37,346 nt of DNA from Mariprofundaceae bacterium. GTDB taxonomy: Bacteria; Pseudomonadota; Zetaproteobacteria; Mariprofundales; Mariprofundaceae. Shown piece by piece: positions 1 through 7,760 of the stretch (position 1 is its first letter; each line of letters begins with the position of its first letter). The position numbers and the translations under genes are program-made. The notes beneath the pieces are model-generated. The model ran no database searches and was not told where the DNA came from. It saw nothing but the letters and a program-made list of their open reading frames with translations. Location of the stretch: NCBI GenBank assembly GCA_030950925.1, contig JAUZQO010000011.1, forward strand, positions 1-37,346, given 5' to 3'.

Positions 1-111
1 AAGCACTTTACAACCAAAAAAGTGCCCGCTGTAGCTTTAGGGATCGTCGAAAAATCATTTTCTATCGCTCAGATGTTTAGAATGCAGGTGCTATCAACAC
101 CTCACCCATAA
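1..111 (+). CDS. C-terminal fragment of a probable DDE transposase
   Basis: The frame is open from base 1 and ends in TAA at 109-111, giving 36 residues. It contains KKVPAVALGIVEKSFSIAQM. This resembles the end of several DDE transposases, where a motif of the type TPAxAxGI follows the last catalytic region. The catalytic residues would lie upstream, outside the window. The position, right beside a truncated MerR gene, fits an insertion sequence. The family cannot be told from this short tail, and an unrelated protein C-terminus is possible. Confidence 0.4.
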   Translation, partial: KHFTTKKVPAVALGIVEKSFSIAQMFRMQVLSTPHP

Positions 112-140
112 ATCATATCAAACTCAACTGACCCAGTGCC
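1..140 (+). mobile_element. Right end of an insertion sequence (remnant, starts before the window)
   Basis: An open frame running in from the window edge stops at 111. About 30 bases later, near 140/141, recognisable MerR coding sequence on the other strand begins abruptly. Read from the junction inward on the - strand the element would begin GGCACTGGGTCAGTTGAG. The first seven bases equal the start of IS6-family ends (GGCACTG), but the rest differs, so the family is unassigned. No matching left end or target duplication can be seen because the other end lies outside the window. Confidence 0.45.
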
Positions 141-314
141 AAATCCTAAAGCTTTGGCATGGACGATAAATAACAAACGTTTGACATCTTTGGGCTGATA
201 AATTCGATAGCCCGATGCAGTACGCGAGACTTTGAACATCAAACCACGCTTTTCATAATAACGAATGGTATCGATATGGGTGTTGGCTTGTTTTGCCAGT
301 TCACTGATCTTCAT
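102..314 (-). pseudogene. MerR-family regulator, truncated after the DNA-binding domain
   Basis: The N-terminus is a clear MerR winged-helix domain: MKISELAK, then DTIRYYEKRGL, then SGYRIY. MerR proteins use this domain to bind and untwist promoters with overlong spacers. Family members are usually about 120-140 residues, with a dimerisation helix and a C-terminal effector site. Here the family match ends at AKALGF (about residue 58), followed by 12 unrelated residues and a stop. The break coincides with the probable insertion-sequence end at 140, so the sensor half is lost. It is divergent from the sulfur module and preceded by its own MerR-type promoter. It may once have controlled that module, but the lost effector was not necessarily a sulfur compound. 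Confidence 0.75.
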
Positions 315-456: not shown

Positions 457-663
457 ATGAAGGGAAATGTAGGTGGTATTGATCGAATCGTACGAATTTT
501 AGGGGGTATTGGGCTGCTTATACTCGGTTTTGTTGCTGGTTTAAGTGAACCTTGGAACTATGTTGCTATGGGTGTAGGTGCTGTTTTTCTAGCAACAGGG
601 CTTATGAAGTTCTGTTTGCTTTATACAATACTTGGCATCAATAGTTGCCCAATGAAAAAATAA
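457..663 (+). CDS. DUF2892 (YgaP-type) inner-membrane protein
   Basis: This 68-residue protein has the DUF2892 pattern: an N-terminal GGIDRIVRILGG segment, then two hydrophobic helices (about residues 14-30 and 37-60) and a short basic tail ending in CPMKK. The ATG at 457 is chosen because AAAGGAGG lies 7 bases upstream; the frame extends further upstream but without support. DUF2892 segments occur alone or fused to rhodanese domains (as in YgaP), often beside sulfide-handling genes. Here it opens the sulfur module. Its biochemical role is unknown. Two cysteines (CLL and NSCPM) could bind sulfur or metal, which is speculation. Confidence 0.85.
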   Translation: MKGNVGGIDRIVRILGGIGLLILGFVAGLSEPWNYVAMGVGAVFLATGLMKFCLLYTILGINSCPMKK

Positions 664-675
664 CACATCCTGAAT

Positions 676-729
676 GCAAGTAATATTGTTATTGCACTTG
701 CCAATAACAAACAGGAAGTATGAACTTCC
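676..729 (+). other. Two small hairpins between the DUF2892 gene and sqr
   Basis: GCAAGT (676-681) pairs with ACTTGC (696-701), and GGAAGT (714-719) pairs with ACTTCC (724-729) around a 4-base loop. Neither is followed by a T-run, so they are not typical terminators. They could protect or separate messages. The remaining bases up to 799 show nothing else. Confidence 0.3.
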
Positions 730-799
730 CAAATGATGCCGTGTCCTCATGGTAATAAACAATGTGGGTATCCAACCCATCGATGTAATGGAGAGAGTA

Positions 800-2077
800 A
801 TGGCACATGTTGCAATTATTGGTGCTGGTATTGGCGGTATGCCAGCAGCCTATGAAATGAAAGAAGGATTGAAAAAATTAGGTGGTGAGCATGAAGTGAC
901 TGTGATTTCCAATGTGGATTACTTTCATTTTACGCCTTCCAACCCTTGGGTCGCTATTGGGTGGCGTGATAAAGAGCAAATTAGTTTTGAATGCTCCCCT
1001 TACTTGAATAAAAAAGGTATCAATTTTTTATCCTGTGGTGTGGATGAAATTTTAGCAGATGAAAATAAATTGCGTTTGGGTACTGGAAAATTTCTTGAAT
1101 ATGATTACCTGATTATTGCTTCTGGTCCGCGCTTGGCCTTTGAATTGGTGCCAGGCATGGGGCCTGAAGGGCATAGTCACTCTATTTGCCATGTGGATCA
1201 TGCGGTCGAGACATTTCATGCTTTTGAAGAGTTTTGTAAAAACCCTGGACCTATTGTGGTCGGTGCAGTGCAAGGTGTTTCATGTTACGGACCTGTCTAT
1301 GAATACGCTTGTATTTTGGATACAGAACTGCGCCGCCGTAAAATTCGTGATCAAGTTCCGATGACGTTGATTACACCTGAACCCTATATTGGTCATTTGG
1401 GTCTGGGTGGTGTGGAAGATTCCAAAGGACTGTTGGAGTCTGAACTTCGCAAGCGTGATATTAAGTTTATCACCAATTGTAAAACCAATGCCGTACATGA
1501 ACACACGATTGATTATGAAGAGGTGGATCGAAACGGCGATGTGATTGCTTCGGGTAGTTTAGAACACAAATTTGCCATGTTGATGCCACCTTTCCGTGGT
1601 GCTGGTCCTGTTGCCAACTGTGAAGCGATTGTAAATCCATTGGGCATGGTGAAAATCAATAAATTTCAACAAAGCCCAGACTTTCAAAATATTTATGCCA
1701 CTGGTGTGATTGTTGCGATACCACCTGTGGAAAAATGTCCGCTTATGGTAGGCACACCCAAAACAGGCTTTATGATTGAATCGATGACCACAGCAATTGT
1801 GCATAATATTGTGCATGATTTGAAAGGTGAAGAACCTGAAAAATGTGGTACATGGGGCGCTATTTGCTTGGCAGACTTTGGTGATGGCGGTGTTGCATTG
1901 GTTGCTTATCCTCAAATTCCACCACGCAATATGGTCTGGGCAAAAGGTGGTAAATGGGTGCATATTGCCAAGGTTGGCTTTGAAAAATATTTTATACGCA
2001 AGATGAAAACTGGACAATCCGAACCGTGGTTGGAAAAAATGTTCTTGAAGCAGTTGGGTATTGAACGTTTGAAGTAA
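800..2077 (+). CDS. sqr: Sulfide:quinone oxidoreductase
   Basis: A 425-residue flavoprotein of the FAD disulfide-oxidoreductase fold. It oxidises sulfide at the cytoplasmic membrane and passes electrons to quinone, giving polysulfide or a persulfide. The dinucleotide-binding motif GAGIGG is at residues 8-13. Cysteines 130 (SICHVDHA), 162 (GVSCYGP) and 356 (GAICLADFGDGG) match the three conserved cysteines of well-studied SQRs such as the Acidithiobacillus enzyme (128, 160, 356). The segment VGTPKTGFMIESM is also typical. ATG 800 is chosen because GGAGAG sits just upstream and the FAD motif then starts at the usual distance; an upstream ATG at 749 would add 17 atypical residues. The cytochrome and persulfide dioxygenase follow directly. 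Confidence 0.92.
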   Translation: MAHVAIIGAGIGGMPAAYEMKEGLKKLGGEHEVTVISNVDYFHFTPSNPWVAIGWRDKEQISFECSPYLNKKGINFLSCGVDEILADENKLRLGTGKFLEYDYLIIASGPRLAFELVPGMGPEGHSHSICHVDHAVETFHAFEEFCKNPGPIVVGAVQGVSCYGPVYEYACILDTELRRRKIRDQVPMTLITPEPYIGHLGLGGVEDSKGLLESELRKRDIKFITNCKTNAVHEHTIDYEEVDRNGDVIASGSLEHKFAMLMPPFRGAGPVANCEAIVNPLGMVKINKFQQSPDFQNIYATGVIVAIPPVEKCPLMVGTPKTGFMIESMTTAIVHNIVHDLKGEEPEKCGTWGAICLADFGDGGVALVAYPQIPPRNMVWAKGGKWVHIAKVGFEKYFIRKMKTGQSEPWLEKMFLKQLGIERLK

Positions 2078-2087
2078 TCGGTCACAT

Positions 2088-2115
2088 TCACGGTGGGAGC
2101 TTGCTCCCTTCGTGA
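2088..2115 (+). other. Strong intercistronic hairpin after sqr
   Basis: TCACG (2088-2092) and GGGAGC (2095-2100), then a TT loop, then GCTCCC (2103-2108) and CGTGA (2111-2115). The two stems are separated by a symmetrical 2x2 internal loop. No T-run follows, so RNA processing, stabilisation or attenuation between sqr and the cytochrome gene is more likely than full termination. Confidence 0.55.
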
Positions 2116-2146
2116 TATGCTTTATGCAATATAAACTGGAGGATAT

Positions 2147-2620
2147 ATGTGTCAGTGCAAAAGAACCCCATGGGTGATTGTTGCGGTACTTTTAACGATT
2201 ATCATCGGCTTTGCTGTAAAATTTATGGTTCTTGGTAGTACGGCGACCGCAGAAGATGGGCGTACCCAAGTTTTATTAAATACCAGTGAACGCGCCCAAG
2301 TGTTGGGTGAAATGCGTCAACTGTTGGCATCCACGCAACAAGTGGTGGAAGGTTTATCCGAACAGGATTTGAAGAAAGTTGTTGAAGCTGCCTCAAAAGT
2401 GGGCATGCAAGCGACAAGCACGATGGATGTTACGCTGAAGGCGAAGCTTCCCATGGATTTCAAAAAACTGGGTTTTGCAACCCATCAAGCCTTTGATGAT
2501 ATTGCGAGAATGGCACAGGAAGGCAAGTCTGTGCAAGCGATTCAAGCCAAGTTAGCGCGCACCATGAACCAATGTGTGGCATGTCATGCTAGTTTTCAAC
2601 TTCCTGTTCTAAAGCCATAA
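2147..2620 (+). CDS. Membrane-anchored c'-like monohaem cytochrome
   Basis: A 157-residue protein with an N-terminal hydrophobic helix (about residues 9-27) that acts as signal anchor, a helical middle, and a single haem motif CVACH at 143-147 near the C-terminus. A CxxCH at the end of a predicted helical bundle is the layout of cytochrome c'/c-556 (Cytochrom_C_2) proteins. It should face the periplasm. GGAGG lies just before the ATG. Its place between sqr and the persulfide dioxygenase suggests a role in sulfide oxidation or in binding a small ligand, but no partner can be proven. c'-type cytochromes often have an open haem face that binds NO or CO, so protection of respiration is an alternative. 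Confidence 0.75.
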   Translation: MCQCKRTPWVIVAVLLTIIIGFAVKFMVLGSTATAEDGRTQVLLNTSERAQVLGEMRQLLASTQQVVEGLSEQDLKKVVEAASKVGMQATSTMDVTLKAKLPMDFKKLGFATHQAFDDIARMAQEGKSVQAIQAKLARTMNQCVACHASFQLPVLKP

Positions 2621-2644
2621 CACAAATTATTTGGAGGTAAGTAT

Positions 2645-3328
2645 ATGTTTTTTCGACAGTTCTTTGATGAAAATACATGGACATATAGTTATTTGCTCGC
2701 TGATTCTGAATCGGGTGAAGCATTGTTGATTGATCCTGTTTTTGAGCAAGCCGAACGTGATCTTCATTTTTTAAATGAGCTTGGTTTAAAGCTTATTTAT
2801 ACTGTTGATACACATGTTCATGCCGATCATATTACAGGAAGTGGTGTATTGCGTGAAAAAACGGGCTGCCAAATTGGTGTTTCAGTGCATGCAGGCATAT
2901 TAAATGCTGATGCAGCATTAAAAGATGGTGATGTTTTACATATCGGAAGATATGATGTCCAAGTCTTAGAAACGCCTGGACATACCCATACTTGCTTATC
3001 ATTTGTGTGTGATAACCGTGTGTTTACAGGTGATGCTCTATTGATTCGAGGATGTGGGCGAACGGATTTTCAACAGGGTGATGCCGAACAACTTTACGCT
3101 TCAATTACAAATAAATTGTACACCCTACCGAATCAAACCTTGGTCTATCCTGGGCATGATTATAAAGGTATGACGGTGTCGAGTATTGCTGAAGAAAAAA
3201 CAAATAACCCAAGGGTTTCATTGGGTTGCAAAAAATTTATTCACCTTATGAACAACTTAAATTTACCACAGCCCAAACGTATCCACGAAGCAGTGCCTGC
3301 GAATATGGTATGTGGCTGCATGGATTGA
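2645..3328 (+). CDS. ETHE1-type persulfide dioxygenase (metallo-beta-lactamase fold)
   Basis: A 227-residue protein matching the ETHE1/Blh persulfide dioxygenase branch of the metallo-beta-lactamase fold. These Fe(II) enzymes oxidise glutathione persulfide to sulfite. Visible metal-site elements are THVHADH (His57, His59, Asp61, His62), TPGHTHT (His113), FTGDALLIRGCGRTDF (Asp130) and YPGHDY. By homology the iron ligands should be His57, His113 and Asp130. The ATG has GGAGG 9 bases upstream. Lying after SQR and before a sulfite-type exporter, it fits the second step of sulfide detoxification. A glyoxalase II role is less likely because the iron-type GCGRTDF segment is characteristic of ETHE1. 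No rhodanese domain is fused. Confidence 0.9.
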   Translation: MFFRQFFDENTWTYSYLLADSESGEALLIDPVFEQAERDLHFLNELGLKLIYTVDTHVHADHITGSGVLREKTGCQIGVSVHAGILNADAALKDGDVLHIGRYDVQVLETPGHTHTCLSFVCDNRVFTGDALLIRGCGRTDFQQGDAEQLYASITNKLYTLPNQTLVYPGHDYKGMTVSSIAEEKTNNPRVSLGCKKFIHLMNNLNLPQPKRIHEAVPANMVCGCMD

Positions 3329-3353
3329 TAAGTTGTTTAACACGGTTTTGGTT

Positions 3354-3440
3354 CACAAAGAAAGACTGTCCTCCCCTCCCTTTGTGTGCCAAATGATGGA
3401 CTGTTTTCACCGCCCAACCTCCCCTATGATGGGCGGTGAA
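3354..3440 (+). other. Two hairpins in the gap before the TauE/SafE gene
   Basis: CACAAAG (3354-3360) pairs with CTTTGTG (3380-3386). TTCACCGCCCA (3406-3416) pairs perfectly over 11 bases with TGGGCGGTGAA (3430-3440) around a 13-base loop. No T-run follows the second stem. This may be a partial terminator, a processing site or an operator. It splits the module into an upper part (DUF2892 to dioxygenase) and a lower part (exporter onward). Confidence 0.5.
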
Positions 3441-3469
3441 TTCAGTAACTTCATTCAATATATTTGTTG

Positions 3470-4276
3470 ATGATAGATATGATGGTATTGGGCTGGTTGG
3501 GTGCTTTAGGTGTGGGGCTAACACTGGCCTTATGTGGTGCTGGCGGTTCTATTTTAGCCGTGCCTATTTTGGTCTATTTGATGGGCGTTCCTGCAACTGA
3601 TGCAACGGTCTACTCATTGTTTATTGTAGGTGTCACAGCTGCCATCAGTGCCTATAGTTATTATCAAAAGAAGTTGATTGATTTTCCAGTCGCAGTCGCT
3701 TTTATTGTCCCTTCTTTGCTAAGTATTGAGCTTGTTCGTGCATGGTTGTTACCCATCATACCCCATGTTTTATATCAATCCCAGCATTGGGTATTACATC
3801 GTGATACACTCATCTTATTGATTTTTTCAATGATTATGCTTGGTGCGGCACGCGCCATGTTGCGCCCCGCTCCCACGCAAGAAAATTCAATAGCTGTTCG
3901 ACCTTGGTCTAAAATTATGGGGCAAGGTTTATGGTTGGGTTGCATGGTTGGTCTTGTGGGTGCAGGTGGTGGATTTCTTATTGTTCCTGCATTGGTCACA
4001 TGGGTGGGCTTATCCATGGCAGCGTCTGTGGGTACATCACTGTTAATCATCACCATCAATGCCATGTTTGGTTTTGCAGTAGGGATACAATCAGGAAGTG
4101 AGATTGATGTTTCTTTGATATTGATGTTTACAGCTTTATCTTTATTGGGTGCATGGATAGGCACACGTTTGGCATACCGTGTGAATGAAAAAACGTTAAA
4201 AATTGGTTTTGCCTATATGATTATCCTTATTGCGGTAAGTATGGGGGTACATAGTCTTTGGAATCTTCAAGTATGA
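3470..4276 (+). CDS. TauE/SafE-family anion exporter
   Basis: A polytopic membrane protein of 268 residues with about eight hydrophobic helices in two repeats. Each repeat begins with the family glycine motif: GAGGSILAVPILV near the N-terminus and GAGGGFLIVPALV in the middle. TauE/SafE proteins move sulfite, sulfoacetate or related sulfur anions. After a persulfide dioxygenase the likely cargo is sulfite, which is an inference from context. The start is uncertain because no good ribosome site is seen. TTG 3464 and ATG 3470, 3479 and 3482 are all in frame, and ATG 3470 is taken. Confidence 0.85.
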   Translation: MIDMMVLGWLGALGVGLTLALCGAGGSILAVPILVYLMGVPATDATVYSLFIVGVTAAISAYSYYQKKLIDFPVAVAFIVPSLLSIELVRAWLLPIIPHVLYQSQHWVLHRDTLILLIFSMIMLGAARAMLRPAPTQENSIAVRPWSKIMGQGLWLGCMVGLVGAGGGFLIVPALVTWVGLSMAASVGTSLLIITINAMFGFAVGIQSGSEIDVSLILMFTALSLLGAWIGTRLAYRVNEKTLKIGFAYMIILIAVSMGVHSLWNLQV

Positions 4277-4319
4277 ATGTTCATCAAGCTAAGAAGTGTT
4301 GTATATCAAGGAGTGATTG

Positions 4320-5120
4320 ATGTTAAAATATATGGTATGGTGGGCGGTCTTGCTCGGAAGTTTTTCGAATATCGCCATGGCCAAAACGCTACCTTTTCAA
4401 CTGAGTATTCAAGGCGCTGATGTTAGCATACAACAAACATTCACATTGCGTGATGTGAATGAAGGTAACCATGTGATACATTTAAATTTCCAAGATCATC
4501 ATCACCATGATTATACCTTGGATGTGAGCTATCAAGCACTGCCAAGTAATCGTTCTTACCCCATGCACTTGGATGTTACGTTAAAAAATAAACAGGGAAA
4601 AAAATTAGCTTATTTATTTTTTGCGAACAATGGTCTTGCTGCGCTAAAAAGAATCGGTACTTTGGGTGTTGCAGTCAATATTAACGGCAAACTGATGGAT
4701 ATTCGTTTGCGTTTTGATGAGAAAAAACAAGGAACACTTGCACTATCTGATGTAAATCATGAACGTTTTATTCAAGATACCTTGGTTCCTGCATTTCATT
4801 TCCAAATGATTCGCCCAGTGATTGTGCCTTGGGTTGCCAAAGGATTACGCTCTCAAACATATAGCCTTGATGCGCATCCTTATGCTGTGAATTATAGCAT
4901 TCAAGATTTGGGGCATGGTGTGCTTGAATTTCAACATCATTTGTATCGCAGTGAGGATGGTAAAAAAACCTTATTAGAGCGTGTTTATTTTTATGCCGAT
5001 AGTTTATCAATATTGCGCGAAGCGATGTATGCTGCTAAATATTTTGATCGTAAAAATGGTACGTTTAAATTGGTTTTTTATCCTGCTTTAGGGCAAACAG
5101 AGCCGCCAAAAATACGATGA
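4320..5120 (+). CDS. Secreted protein of unknown function with a histidine cluster
   Basis: A 266-residue protein with a cleavable signal peptide (hydrophobic residues about 4-17, likely cut after AMA). The mature part looks rich in beta strands and includes DHHHHDY at about residues 58-64, which could bind metal. I do not recognise a family. ATG 4320 is used because AAGGAG ends 6 bases upstream; an in-frame TTG immediately before it is less likely. Its stop overlaps the next start (ATGA), so the two are probably translationally coupled. A periplasmic or outer-membrane-associated role within the sulfur module is inferred only from position. Confidence 0.6.
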   Translation: MLKYMVWWAVLLGSFSNIAMAKTLPFQLSIQGADVSIQQTFTLRDVNEGNHVIHLNFQDHHHHDYTLDVSYQALPSNRSYPMHLDVTLKNKQGKKLAYLFFANNGLAALKRIGTLGVAVNINGKLMDIRLRFDEKKQGTLALSDVNHERFIQDTLVPAFHFQMIRPVIVPWVAKGLRSQTYSLDAHPYAVNYSIQDLGHGVLEFQHHLYRSEDGKKTLLERVYFYADSLSILREAMYAAKYFDRKNGTFKLVFYPALGQTEPPKIR

Positions 5121-5710
5121 TTGATAGCATTGTATGGATATGGTTGACAGGTGCTTTGTTTGCTTTGTTTCATAGCTTCACGGCTTCACAAGGCTGTAAA
5201 CAGTGCTTATATGGCTTGGGCTTAAAAGAACCGCATTATCGTTTAACGTATTCTACTGTTTCCTTGCTGACCACCTTATTATGGGCTTGGTATATCCATC
5301 ATTTAGCCGATGTGCCGTTGTATCATATCGAAGGTTGGCTGGCATGGTTCTTTATTGGTGTTCAAATCATTGGAGGCTTGATCGCATTGGCTGCATTTGC
5401 ACCCATTGACGGCTTGGTTTTTTTGGGTCTTCGTAAAGGTATCGAACATGATGATCCCTTTGTCGTACGTGGTATTTATCGCTGGGTACGTCATCCCATG
5501 TATACGGGTGCGATGTTGTTTTTACTCGCCATGCCAGAGCAGACATGGAACGGTTTGAATTTTACGTTGGTGTTGTGTCTATATTTTATCATAGGTTCAC
5601 GATTGGAAGAAAAACGTATGCTGAAAATTCATCCCAGTTATGCCGTATATCAACGCACAGTACCAGCATTTATACCTAAACGCCCCAGTGCTAAAAAGGA
5701 GAATAAATAA
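5117..5710 (+). CDS. ICMT/NnrU-type membrane methyltransferase
   Basis: A 197-residue protein with four to five hydrophobic helices and the C-terminal signature of the isoprenylcysteine/phospholipid methyltransferase family: GIYRWVRHPMYTGAML, then SRLEEKRMLKIHPSYAVYQ. The RHPxY and EE pairs form the S-adenosylmethionine and substrate site in this fold. Bacterial members include lipid methyltransferases, NnrU-like proteins and MddA, which methylates methanethiol and sulfide. It is shorter than MddA, so the substrate stays open. The start overlaps the preceding stop, and its TAA overlaps the next ATG. With the TPMT-like gene downstream, it raises a thiol-methylation hypothesis for this operon. 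Confidence 0.7.
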   Translation: MIDSIVWIWLTGALFALFHSFTASQGCKQCLYGLGLKEPHYRLTYSTVSLLTTLLWAWYIHHLADVPLYHIEGWLAWFFIGVQIIGGLIALAAFAPIDGLVFLGLRKGIEHDDPFVVRGIYRWVRHPMYTGAMLFLLAMPEQTWNGLNFTLVLCLYFIIGSRLEEKRMLKIHPSYAVYQRTVPAFIPKRPSAKKENK

Positions 5711-6222
5711 TGGAAATTCAGGATGTTTTTAAGCAATTACTTGAGGCTCGTGTTGCACATTTAGGCTGGGTGGCTAGAGCAGAAGCGTTGGTTGAAGGGC
5801 TGCCTTTAGATAAAGAACAAGTTCCCCTTTTGGCAACAAATTGTGATTTTGGGCATTGGTATTTAGGAGGAGGTCGCGCCTTACGTCATTTGCCTGCTTA
5901 TGATAGGGTCGCTCCTCCCCATGAACGGCTGCATCATATTTATTCGGATATTTTTTCGATATTGTATAGCGAAGAAGAACGCTTCAATATTTTACAATGG
6001 CTAGGCATTCAACGCCGCATGAATCAACCCAATCGAGATAAAGCACGCGCATTATTGCCTAAACTTAAACTTGCATCTCAAGAAGTATTAGAATCACTTT
6101 CGCATCTGACTTTTGAGTTAAATCAATATATTAAACGTAAAAACATTCAAAAAAATACGCCTTTGAGTGATTTGGAAAAACTATACAATGATTTAGAAAA
6201 TATGGGATATACAGGAAAGTGA
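5710..6222 (+). CDS. Stand-alone CZB-domain zinc-binding protein
   Basis: A 170-residue soluble protein whose first 80 residues match the chemoreceptor zinc-binding (CZB) domain: His17 (ARVAHLGW), Cys45 in TNCDFGHWYLGGG, His71 and His75 (APPHERLHHIY). The three-His/one-Cys set is the known zinc site, and the cysteine is a thiol redox switch in CZB-regulated diguanylate cyclases and receptors. The C-terminal half is charged and helical, with no receptor or GGDEF domain. AGGAG precedes the ATG. In this setting it could sense zinc, hypochlorite-like oxidants or reactive sulfur species; the last is inference. Confidence 0.7.
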   Translation: MEIQDVFKQLLEARVAHLGWVARAEALVEGLPLDKEQVPLLATNCDFGHWYLGGGRALRHLPAYDRVAPPHERLHHIYSDIFSILYSEEERFNILQWLGIQRRMNQPNRDKARALLPKLKLASQEVLESLSHLTFELNQYIKRKNIQKNTPLSDLEKLYNDLENMGYTGK

Positions 6223-6227
6223 TAACA

Positions 6228-6812
6228 ATGAATCAAGACATTGCTTGGGAAGATTTATATCAACAAGGGGATACAGGTTGGGATCGTGGTGAGATTAGCC
6301 CTGCCCTCACCCACTGGCTTGAATCTGGATTAAATAAAGAACAGCGCGTATTGATTCCAGGCTGTGGTCGCGGCTATGAAGTGATTGTGTTGGCACGTTT
6401 AGGCTTTGATGTCACCGCTTTGGATATCGCGCCTTCTGCCATTGAATCCCTAAAAAATGCACTAAAGAAGGAAGATTTACATGCAACACTGGTGTGCCGT
6501 GATTTGTTCGATTATCAGACTACCACGCCGTTTGATGTGATATATGAGCAAACATGCCTGTGTGCTTTACCCCTTGAGCTTCGTTCAGCTTACGCCTCCC
6601 ATATCAAAGCATGGCTTAAGCCCCAAGGCATCTTTTATTTTTCGATGATGCAAACAGGGGAAAAAGAAGGCCCACCATTTCATTGTGATTGGGCTGATAT
6701 GAAACGCTTATTTGCTGCCGAAGATTGGTTATGGCAAGAGCAAGCACCCTTGCTAATACCAAGACCCAAAGGCAAGCGTTTTGAATTAGCATTTCGCTTG
6801 ATTGGGAGGTAA
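6228..6812 (+). CDS. TPMT-family S-adenosylmethionine methyltransferase
   Basis: A 194-residue class I methyltransferase of the thiopurine S-methyltransferase family. It shows WEDLYQQGDTGWDRG, the SAM loop VLIPGCGRGYE, the acidic strand-2 end VTALDIAP, and the family mark YEQTCLCALPLELRSAY. TPMT relatives methylate small thiols and anions; plant HOL/thiol methyltransferases act on halide, thiocyanate and bisulfide. The ATG at 6228 lies 8 bases after AGGAAAG. An in-frame GTG at 6219 overlapping the previous stop is an alternative. In this operon sulfide or a low-molecular thiol is an attractive substrate, but nothing in the sequence proves it. Confidence 0.75.
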   Translation: MNQDIAWEDLYQQGDTGWDRGEISPALTHWLESGLNKEQRVLIPGCGRGYEVIVLARLGFDVTALDIAPSAIESLKNALKKEDLHATLVCRDLFDYQTTTPFDVIYEQTCLCALPLELRSAYASHIKAWLKPQGIFYFSMMQTGEKEGPPFHCDWADMKRLFAAEDWLWQEQAPLLIPRPKGKRFELAFRLIGR

Positions 6813-6815
6813 TTT

Positions 6816-7046
6816 ATGAAGTGGCTCGATGATATGTCGTATATATTTCTTATAGCTGCATTGATCTTGATGGCGATGATGCCTTTTCAACCTGAACCCC
6901 ATTTGCTTGAAAAATATTATATGTGGCAAGCAGGTAAATTACATCGTTTATTGGACATCTTTGATGTTTTTTGGCATTTGCTTCCCGCTTTTTTACTTCT
7001 TTTAAAAATATCGCGCAATGTCATGCAACATAAAGGTAGATCATGA
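6816..7046 (+). CDS. Small two-helix membrane protein, unknown
   Basis: 76 residues with two hydrophobic segments (about residues 8-23 and 50-64) separated by a polar loop with PEPHLLEKYY. GGGAGG is well placed before the ATG. It starts 3 bases after the TPMT-like gene and its stop overlaps the next gene (ATGA), so it belongs to the same transcript. I do not recognise a family. Confidence 0.6.
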   Translation: MKWLDDMSYIFLIAALILMAMMPFQPEPHLLEKYYMWQAGKLHRLLDIFDVFWHLLPAFLLLLKISRNVMQHKGRS

Positions 7047-7468
7047 AATTACTTGGGATGTTACTCTTATTGATGGCAAATGGTGATGCTGCGATGGCAG
7101 ATCCATTTGATGCGGATGAGGGCTATGTGAATAGAGGCGCACCTGATATGTTGGGTTATGCAGGTTTGGCTATGTTGATGCTGAACTATGTATTGTTTGG
7201 CATTGCTGCGGTTGTTTTTGGTAAAGGTTTGGCAAAGAAAACCCCGTGGTTGTTACATATTAGCCGAATTTTTGCGAAACCTTGGTCATTCGGTATGCAA
7301 AAAGAAGTGCGTGATGATCGACACTGGGCAGACATTCCCCTCACCGTGGTGATCATGGTGTTGTGGATTTTTCTATGTCAGTGGTTCAATGAGTTCGGTT
7401 TGGGTGCTGTGGCTATGATTGGTTTGGCTTTGATGGCTGTTTTGGTACTTCATATGTTAAAAGATTAA
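7043..7468 (+). CDS. Membrane protein with signal peptide, unknown
   Basis: 141 residues. The N-terminus is a signal peptide (MKLLGMLLLLMANGDAAMA), followed by an acidic loop DPFDADEGYV and about three hydrophobic helices (residues about 40-60, 100-115, 120-138). The start overlaps the stop of the preceding small membrane gene, suggesting a coupled pair that may form a complex. No family is recognised. It is the last tightly coupled gene of the sulfur module; the next small gene is 118 bases away. Confidence 0.6.
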   Translation: MKLLGMLLLLMANGDAAMADPFDADEGYVNRGAPDMLGYAGLAMLMLNYVLFGIAAVVFGKGLAKKTPWLLHISRIFAKPWSFGMQKEVRDDRHWADIPLTVVIMVLWIFLCQWFNEFGLGAVAMIGLALMAVLVLHMLKD

Positions 7469-7586
7469 GCGGAATTCTTGATGTCATTATTTTATCAAGG
7501 GAGACTTTTCTTTGTGTTTAGAAAATGCCTTGTTAAGCTTCGTTGTATGGCATTTTTAGCCAAATATTTATGAAAATGGTGAATAT

Positions 7587-7760
7587 ATGAACGTCGATCA
7601 ACATTTGAAAGTAGCACAATGGCACATGGAACAAGCGCGTTTGCATGCAACAACACAGCATTCTTGCGGTTGCCCTGTGAACGAACATTACCAAAATATT
7701 ATCAACGAAGTTGAATCTGGTAAAATTGAAGAAGAATTGGTTTGTTCAACCGAAAAGTAG
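7587..7760 (+). CDS. 57-residue soluble protein with a CGC motif, unknown
   Basis: A small open frame from ATG 7587 to TAG 7760. The protein is helical and polar, with His and Cys clusters: QWHMEQARLHATTQHS, then CGCP, and a third cysteine near the end (LVCSTEK). The ribosome site is weak (GGTGA just upstream). Codon use resembles neighbouring genes, and the frame ends about 25 bases before a strong intrinsic terminator, which supports a real final gene of the module. The Cys/His content suggests metal or sulfur binding, but this is not proven. Confidence 0.5.
   Translation: MNVDQHLKVAQWHMEQARLHATTQHSCGCPVNEHYQNIINEVESGKIEEELVCSTEK

Follow-up and report, generated by a model that had tools for sequence, protein, structure and literature searches.

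The window analysed here is a stretch of 37,346 nucleotides that makes up one entire contig (JAUZQO010000011.1) in the 1.97 Mb draft genome of an uncultured member of the Mariprofundaceae (Zetaproteobacteria; assembly GCA_030950925.1). At positions 457-7760, genes for sulfide oxidation are followed by a gene for a protein with the fold of thiopurine S-methyltransferase (the TPMT-like protein). With a probability of roughly 0.6, the window contains the downstream portion of a (per)sulfide detoxification island of marine iron-oxidizing Zetaproteobacteria, with an oxidative exit through sulfide:quinone oxidoreductase (SQR), the ETHE1-type dioxygenase and the exporter TauE, and an S-methylation exit through the TPMT-like protein. 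All island genes lie on the + strand in the order YgaP-like transmembrane protein, SQR, c'-like cytochrome, ETHE1, TauE, secreted protein, ICMT-like membrane protein, CZB protein, TPMT-like protein and small membrane proteins (Table 1). An initial annotation, made from the letters of the DNA, had named the genes from SQR onward in this order on one strand, and the families were confirmed by sequence and model matches.

The association of the methyltransferase with sulfide genes is not confined to this genome, as the initial annotation had allowed it might be, and recurs across genera. Neighbourhoods were compared in 29 regions taken by place and 80 named loci (L numbers below), with an E below 1e-50 defining orthologues of the TPMT-like protein; most genomes of the family carry such an orthologue. 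A sulfur gene was counted as linked when SQR, ETHE1, rhodanese, OsmC, DUF302 or TusA lay on the same strand no more than 5 kb upstream or 3 kb downstream, the Zetaproteobacteria loci being those with at least 3 kb of upstream sequence. By this count, linkage was found at 27 of 34 Zetaproteobacteria loci, including those of the isolates Mariprofundus ferrooxydans PV-1 and M. erugo P3, versus 1 of 28 loci of other bacteria. Additionally, type-I SQR and the TPMT-like gene lie within 5 kb of each other in 9 of the 17 family genomes carrying both (naive binomial p ~5e-17, not to be taken literally since the genomes are related). What lies immediately upstream of the TPMT-like gene differs among loci and may be ICMT-like, CZB, SQR, OsmC, rhodanese, TauE, TusA, c'-like cytochrome, AhpD-type or a small protein; therefore, the sulfur linkage has survived rearrangement.

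Several arrangements can be distinguished. The islands of Ghiorsea and its relatives run ArsR, DUF2892, rhodaneses, ETHE1, TauE, OsmC, in some cases the secreted protein, then ICMT-like, TPMT-like and the 76-aa protein. Other genera show RND, DUF2892, rhodaneses, an optional TauE, DUF302, Crp, YgaP, SQR, AhpD-type, the 76-aa protein, further small membrane proteins, TPMT-like and RquA-like. The order is SQR, OsmC, TPMT-like in M. ferrooxydans PV-1 (L092) and M. erugo P3 (L103), and a TusA-type sulfur carrier stands directly upstream of the TPMT-like gene in other Mariprofundus (L054, 9455-9676; L055, L057, L113). Rare independent cases outside the class have ETHE1 or rhodanese directly upstream of it (Nevskiales L121, Blastopirellula L118), and YgaP occupies this place in Thiotrichales L115. 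As for regulation, the ArsR repressor that opens the Ghiorsea islands scores best with BigR among sulfur sensors at 62.9 bits against a cut-off of 155, so that by this threshold it is not a member of that family. Its conserved cysteines lie in 'vlChL' and 'iYC', which we take to be BigR/SqrR-like positions.

Two further neighbours of the TPMT-like gene are recurrent. A large RND pump is frequent 3-8 kb upstream (L034, L044, L046, L048, L052), in some cases with membrane-fusion and outer-membrane genes. A gene resembling RquA, the rhodoquinone methyltransferase (167 bits, cut-off 175), follows directly in several genera (L047, 10393-11109; L041, L051, L045, L084, L088).

The TPMT-like protein itself belongs to a distinct clade. 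It scores 77.5 bits against a cut-off of 223.2 in the thiopurine S-methyltransferase model (TIGR03840) and falls outside the TPMT clade, and its identity as a thiopurine methyltransferase was rejected. In a tree of 60 rows, its clade (support 99/95) is apart from the thiopurine methyltransferases (100/99) and from the sampled HOL, TMT and fungal halide methyltransferases (99/96). A long, well-supported branch separates it from TPMT proper and places it on the side of the halide/thiol methyltransferases, 'side' meaning, in this unrooted tree, separation by that branch. The clade carries the motifs YEQTCLCA and MQTG..GPPFHC, and the characterised HOL/TMT/halide clade, to which the protein does not belong, has DY.FFCA instead. 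Among 42 clade sequences Gln111 and Cys115 are invariant, His155 and Cys156 nearly so, and Cys113 is changed to Ser in a few; that these cysteines may hold a persulfide is only a suggestion. A Foldseek search with the AlphaFold model ranked the halide/thiol methyltransferases first (9h04-9h09, 8ajp, 3lcc; E to 2e-16), with other thiol or tellurite enzymes and TPMT below them. The relationship to HOL-type thiol methyltransferases claimed in the initial annotation is thus found in both tree and fold, with the qualification that the protein forms a clade of its own.

The genes of the proposed sulfide-to-sulfite path, SQR, ETHE1 and TauE, are likewise supported. SQR is similar over its full length to type-I enzymes and keeps the three cysteines aligned to those of Acidithiobacillus ferrooxidans SQR (SIC, SC(Y/F)GP and AxC), presumably the ones that matter; its longest open reading frame begins at 749, and the start at 797 was chosen to match homologues. 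The ETHE1-type protein is close to solved ETHE1 and persulfide dioxygenase (PDO) structures and contains the metal motif THVHADH (in THVHADHITG). For the cytochrome, the CVACH motif agrees with the c'-like label, and the family model score falls just short of its cut-off.

Table 1. Genes of the island in the window, with the evidence for each assignment
Feature	Position	Strand	Evidence and remarks
YgaP-like transmembrane protein (DUF2892 type)	457..663	+	PF11127 74 bits; upstream of SQR in many relatives
Type-I SQR	797..2077	+	1e-142 to A. ferrooxidans SQR
Membrane-anchored c'-like cytochrome (CVACH)	2147..2620	+	PF01322 24.3 bits, just below cut-off 26.5; homologues in other islands
ETHE1-type persulfide dioxygenase	2645..3328	+	1e-79 to 4ysb; 3e-78 to human ETHE1
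TauE/SafE exporter (sulfite/sulfonate)	3464..4276	+	PF01925 130 bits
Secreted protein, family unassigned	4317..5120	+	Conserved in Ghiorsea islands
ICMT-fold membrane methyltransferase-like protein, own clade	5117..5710	+	NnrU 40.8 bits with PEMT/ICMT; MddA model 64 bits
Stand-alone CZB (zinc-binding sensor-type) protein	5710..6222	+	PF13682 41 bits; adjoins ICMT-like gene in L062, L064, L235
TPMT-fold S-methyltransferase-like protein, YEQTCLCA clade	6219..6812	+	PF05724 119 bits; tree; AlphaFold2 pLDDT 92
Small membrane protein (76 aa)	6816..7046	+	Conserved motif PF.PEPHL..K..ml..G.L....D.FD..WH..P; 31 rows; no Pfam match
Small membrane protein (141 aa), partner of 76-aa protein	7043..7468	+	15 rows; no family match
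57-aa CGC-containing open reading frame	7587..7760	+	Among loci mapped, sister genome only

Gene content, linkage, clade and fold are observed here, whereas reaction, substrate, regulation and division of labour are inferred as follows. SQR would convert sulfide into a low-molecular persulfide by oxidation. The sulfane sulfur would become sulfite through ETHE1 and rhodaneses, the latter encoded upstream in relatives and past the contig edge here, and TauE would export the sulfite. In parallel with this oxidation, the cytosolic TPMT-like enzyme would methylate surplus HS-, polysulfide or persulfide with S-adenosylmethionine (SAM) as the donor, and the product, methanethiol or a methylated persulfide, would leave the cell. 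Methanethiol is only one option as the end product, and methylated forms of polysulfide or glutathione persulfide are no less possible. The two exits may divide the labour, methylation serving as the non-oxidative one when oxygen or oxidized quinone is scarce. A further methylation, of a second substrate that is hydrophobic or a thiol (possibly methanethiol), may fall to the ICMT-fold membrane protein.

Precedents exist on several sides. Human TPMT methylates HS-, HSS-, HS4- and GSS-, with HS- and GSS- described as branch points with SQOR/ETHE1 (2026 study, PMC13089183), and bacterial S-methylation of H2S and methanethiol is established for MddA, MddH and MddM (PMC12904073). Mariprofundus strains that possess SQR show no growth on sulfide (PMC5513912), a finding in favour of detoxification. 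Taken together, these precedents and the lack of growth on sulfide are the reason for regarding the island as a detoxification system with two exits. Moreover, no SBP56 methanethiol oxidase was found in the 61 genomes searched, suggesting that a methylated product is more likely to be lost than re-oxidized by that route.

Several points weigh against this interpretation. The active-site R152 of human TPMT, which is needed for reactive sulfur, aligns with Gln111 of the TPMT-like protein, and substrate recognition in this clade must therefore differ from that of the human enzyme. Halide/thiol methyltransferases are promiscuous. Some Mariprofundus have the TPMT-like gene alone, near thiG/hemE-like genes (L083, L097, L112), and outside the Zetaproteobacteria, as the single linked locus in 28 indicates, the clade is mostly not beside sulfur genes. 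Plasmid homologues adjoin phenol hydroxylase or unrelated genes.

An unlikely alternative is that sulfide is handled by oxidation only, and that the TPMT-like protein shares the stress island but serves another substrate, as a methyltransferase for halide, thiocyanate or metalloids (Se/Te). The nearest structures are named halide methyltransferases, the protein matches the TPMT_Se_Te and TehB models weakly, rhodaneses could supply thiocyanate, halides are abundant in seawater, and the sister genome has apparent mer genes upstream. However, the linkage is specific to sulfane-sulfur genes, including the TusA-methyltransferase pairs of Mariprofundus, and no recurrent halide or metalloid gene was seen in the neighbourhoods.

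A doubtful proposal of comparable standing is full volatilisation parallel to oxidation, in which the TPMT-like protein would convert sulfide to methanethiol and the ICMT-like protein methanethiol to dimethyl sulfide (DMS). The two genes are adjacent or separated by CZB at about 17 of 47 Zetaproteobacteria loci, this placement being seen in the window's genus and in Ghiorsea, and another ICMT-like copy stands between rhodanese and TauE in L168. Among curated models, MddA (NF045656) is the best for the ICMT-like protein, yet it scores only 64 bits against a cut-off of 270, about 50 N-terminal model positions are lacking, and most other genera with the TPMT-like gene have the ICMT-like gene elsewhere in the genome or lack it. 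The protein passes the Pfam gathering score of NnrU (PF07298, 40.8 vs 24.7 bits) and falls short of protein-S-isoprenylcysteine O-methyltransferase (NF040696, 25.8 vs 160 bits); its predicted model resembles eukaryotic ICMT weakly (E 0.04). In the tree it belongs to its own Zetaproteobacteria clade (100/98), outside MddA (99/95), NnrU (100/100) and ICMT (99/99), the deep order being left open. The identities MddA, NnrU and ICMT were all rejected on this placement. The kinship with MddA suggested in the initial annotation is thus not supported, and neither is the contrary possibility it had raised, that the protein would fall in an NnrU-only clade. From its combined route of oxidation and volatilisation, the linkage of the TPMT-like gene to sulfide genes stands, and the second step by the ICMT-like protein is reduced to conjecture. 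A DMS-forming role of this protein is no more than possible.

The ICMT-like gene often follows a gene for a di-heme cytochrome c peroxidase-like and/or a truncated haemoglobin-like protein (L036, L037, L039, L065, L066, L074, L109, L166), neighbours hinting at a link to redox stress.

Compared to detoxification with two exits, energy conservation from sulfide appears improbable as the purpose of the cluster: SQR feeds quinone and cytochrome bd genes occur in some islands (L051, L073, L103), but sulfide does not serve as a growth substrate for the cultivated Mariprofundus that possess SQR, as cited above. That both methyltransferases modify a membrane lipid or quinone to give SQR a suitable quinone pool is very unlikely, since the PEMT/ICMT relationship of the membrane protein and the RquA-like gene of several genera are set against the absence of that gene from the window's cluster and the fact that TPMT/HOL-fold enzymes act on small nucleophiles.

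Each activity of the proposed two-exit system has a known counterpart. Human TPMT shares the superfamily fold and the proposed branch point, at which sulfide or persulfide is either oxidized by SQR/ETHE1 or methylated (PMC13089183); in contrast, the human genes are unclustered, and the bacterial enzyme belongs to another clade and carries Gln where the human one has Arg152. Plant HOL1/TMT and the fungal and Paraburkholderia halide/thiol methyltransferases (3lcc, 9h04, 9h0d, 8ajp) are the best sequence and fold matches and lie on the same side of the tree, but their identity to the TPMT-like protein is about 25% and it forms its own clade. MddA shares the ICMT-type membrane fold with the ICMT-like protein, which is shorter. 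MddH, MddM1 and MddM2 are also soluble SAM-dependent enzymes that detoxify H2S and methanethiol, but the available part of their description assigns them to the UbiE/UbiG family and does not mention linkage to SQR/ETHE1 (PMC12904073). Bacterial sqr-pdo-rhodanese operons have the same set of SQR, ETHE1 and rhodanese, with an ArsR-type repressor in the case of Ghiorsea, whereas the Zetaproteobacteria islands add one or more methyltransferases, OsmC, DUF302, AhpD-type and small membrane proteins. A search of the open-access literature yielded no paper describing such a cluster, in which persulfide dioxygenase and rhodanese genes are combined with an S-methyltransferase.

The methylation branch has previously been argued from separate, unlinked animal enzymes and from single bacterial Mdd enzymes; here, genome organisation connects methylation with SQR/ETHE1, and does so in iron oxidizers of the deep sea and the coast, a lineage that includes cultivated members. 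The recurrent pairing in relatives makes a second, non-oxidative disposal of sulfide testable. If the interpretation is true, methanethiol or DMS might also come from iron-oxidizing mats, and YEQTCLCA would be a subfamily-level marker to look for. A bolder version, held here only tentatively and as rather unlikely, is that the YEQTCLCA clade constitutes a new bacterial (per)sulfide S-methyltransferase family, that Zetaproteobacteria dispose of sulfide through genetically linked oxidation and methylation exits, in Ghiorsea under a BigR/SqrR-type sensor, and that the ICMT-like protein would provide an MddA-independent second step to a volatile product.

The closest relatives by the TPMT-like protein are metagenome-assembled genomes of Mariprofundaceae/Zetaproteobacteria, such as NORP31 (90% identity). 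Comparison with the nearest relative (genome G005, locus L231) indicates that the contig start cuts the module. L231 runs RND pump, DUF2892, three rhodaneses, DUF302, Crp-type regulator, apparent mer genes with MerR, YgaP, SQR, c'-like cytochrome, ETHE1, TauE and secreted protein up to its contig end, and a second contig of this sister genome resumes with CZB, TPMT-like, 76-aa and 141-aa proteins. The island of L231 extends upstream of YgaP, and therefore the window begins within the island. The island of L231 is interrupted by merR and further genes with an apparent relation to mercury (oriented 5740-7744), and the MerR reading frame of the window (1-314) is truncated by comparison. The first ~120 bases of the window contig differ from the sister genome, reflecting either a rearrangement or an assembly end. 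Neither a tRNA gene nor a composition shift marks 457-7760 as foreign, and PADLOC returned a generic methyltransferase match only.

The overlaps and tiny gaps described in the initial annotation hold for the block from the secreted protein through ICMT-like, CZB, TPMT-like and 76-aa to the 141-aa protein, whose joints are overlaps of 1-4 bases or a 3-base gap. They do not hold upstream, where the gaps are 133 bases (YgaP to SQR, from the SQR start at 797), 69 (SQR to cytochrome), 24 (cytochrome to ETHE1) and 135 (ETHE1 to TauE), nor for the 118 bases between the 141-aa and CGC genes. Promoter and terminator scans of the region gave sites no more frequent than in shuffled sequence and are uninformative on co-transcription. 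The CGC protein, once counted as part of the module, has, in the mapped loci, no counterpart outside the window except in the sister genome, and probably lies outside the conserved module. The secreted protein is still regarded as secreted, and its 'His-rich' label proved accidental, the HHHH run being replaced in homologues.

Two or three small membrane proteins without Pfam or NCBIfam match recur in islands (the window, L047, L046, L051 and others). AhpD-type proteins also occur in islands (L047, 7794-8138, and similar). The NCBIfam model of the selenoprotein MduS weakly matches the TPMT-like protein in its N-terminal half and the AhpD-type proteins in its C-terminal half.

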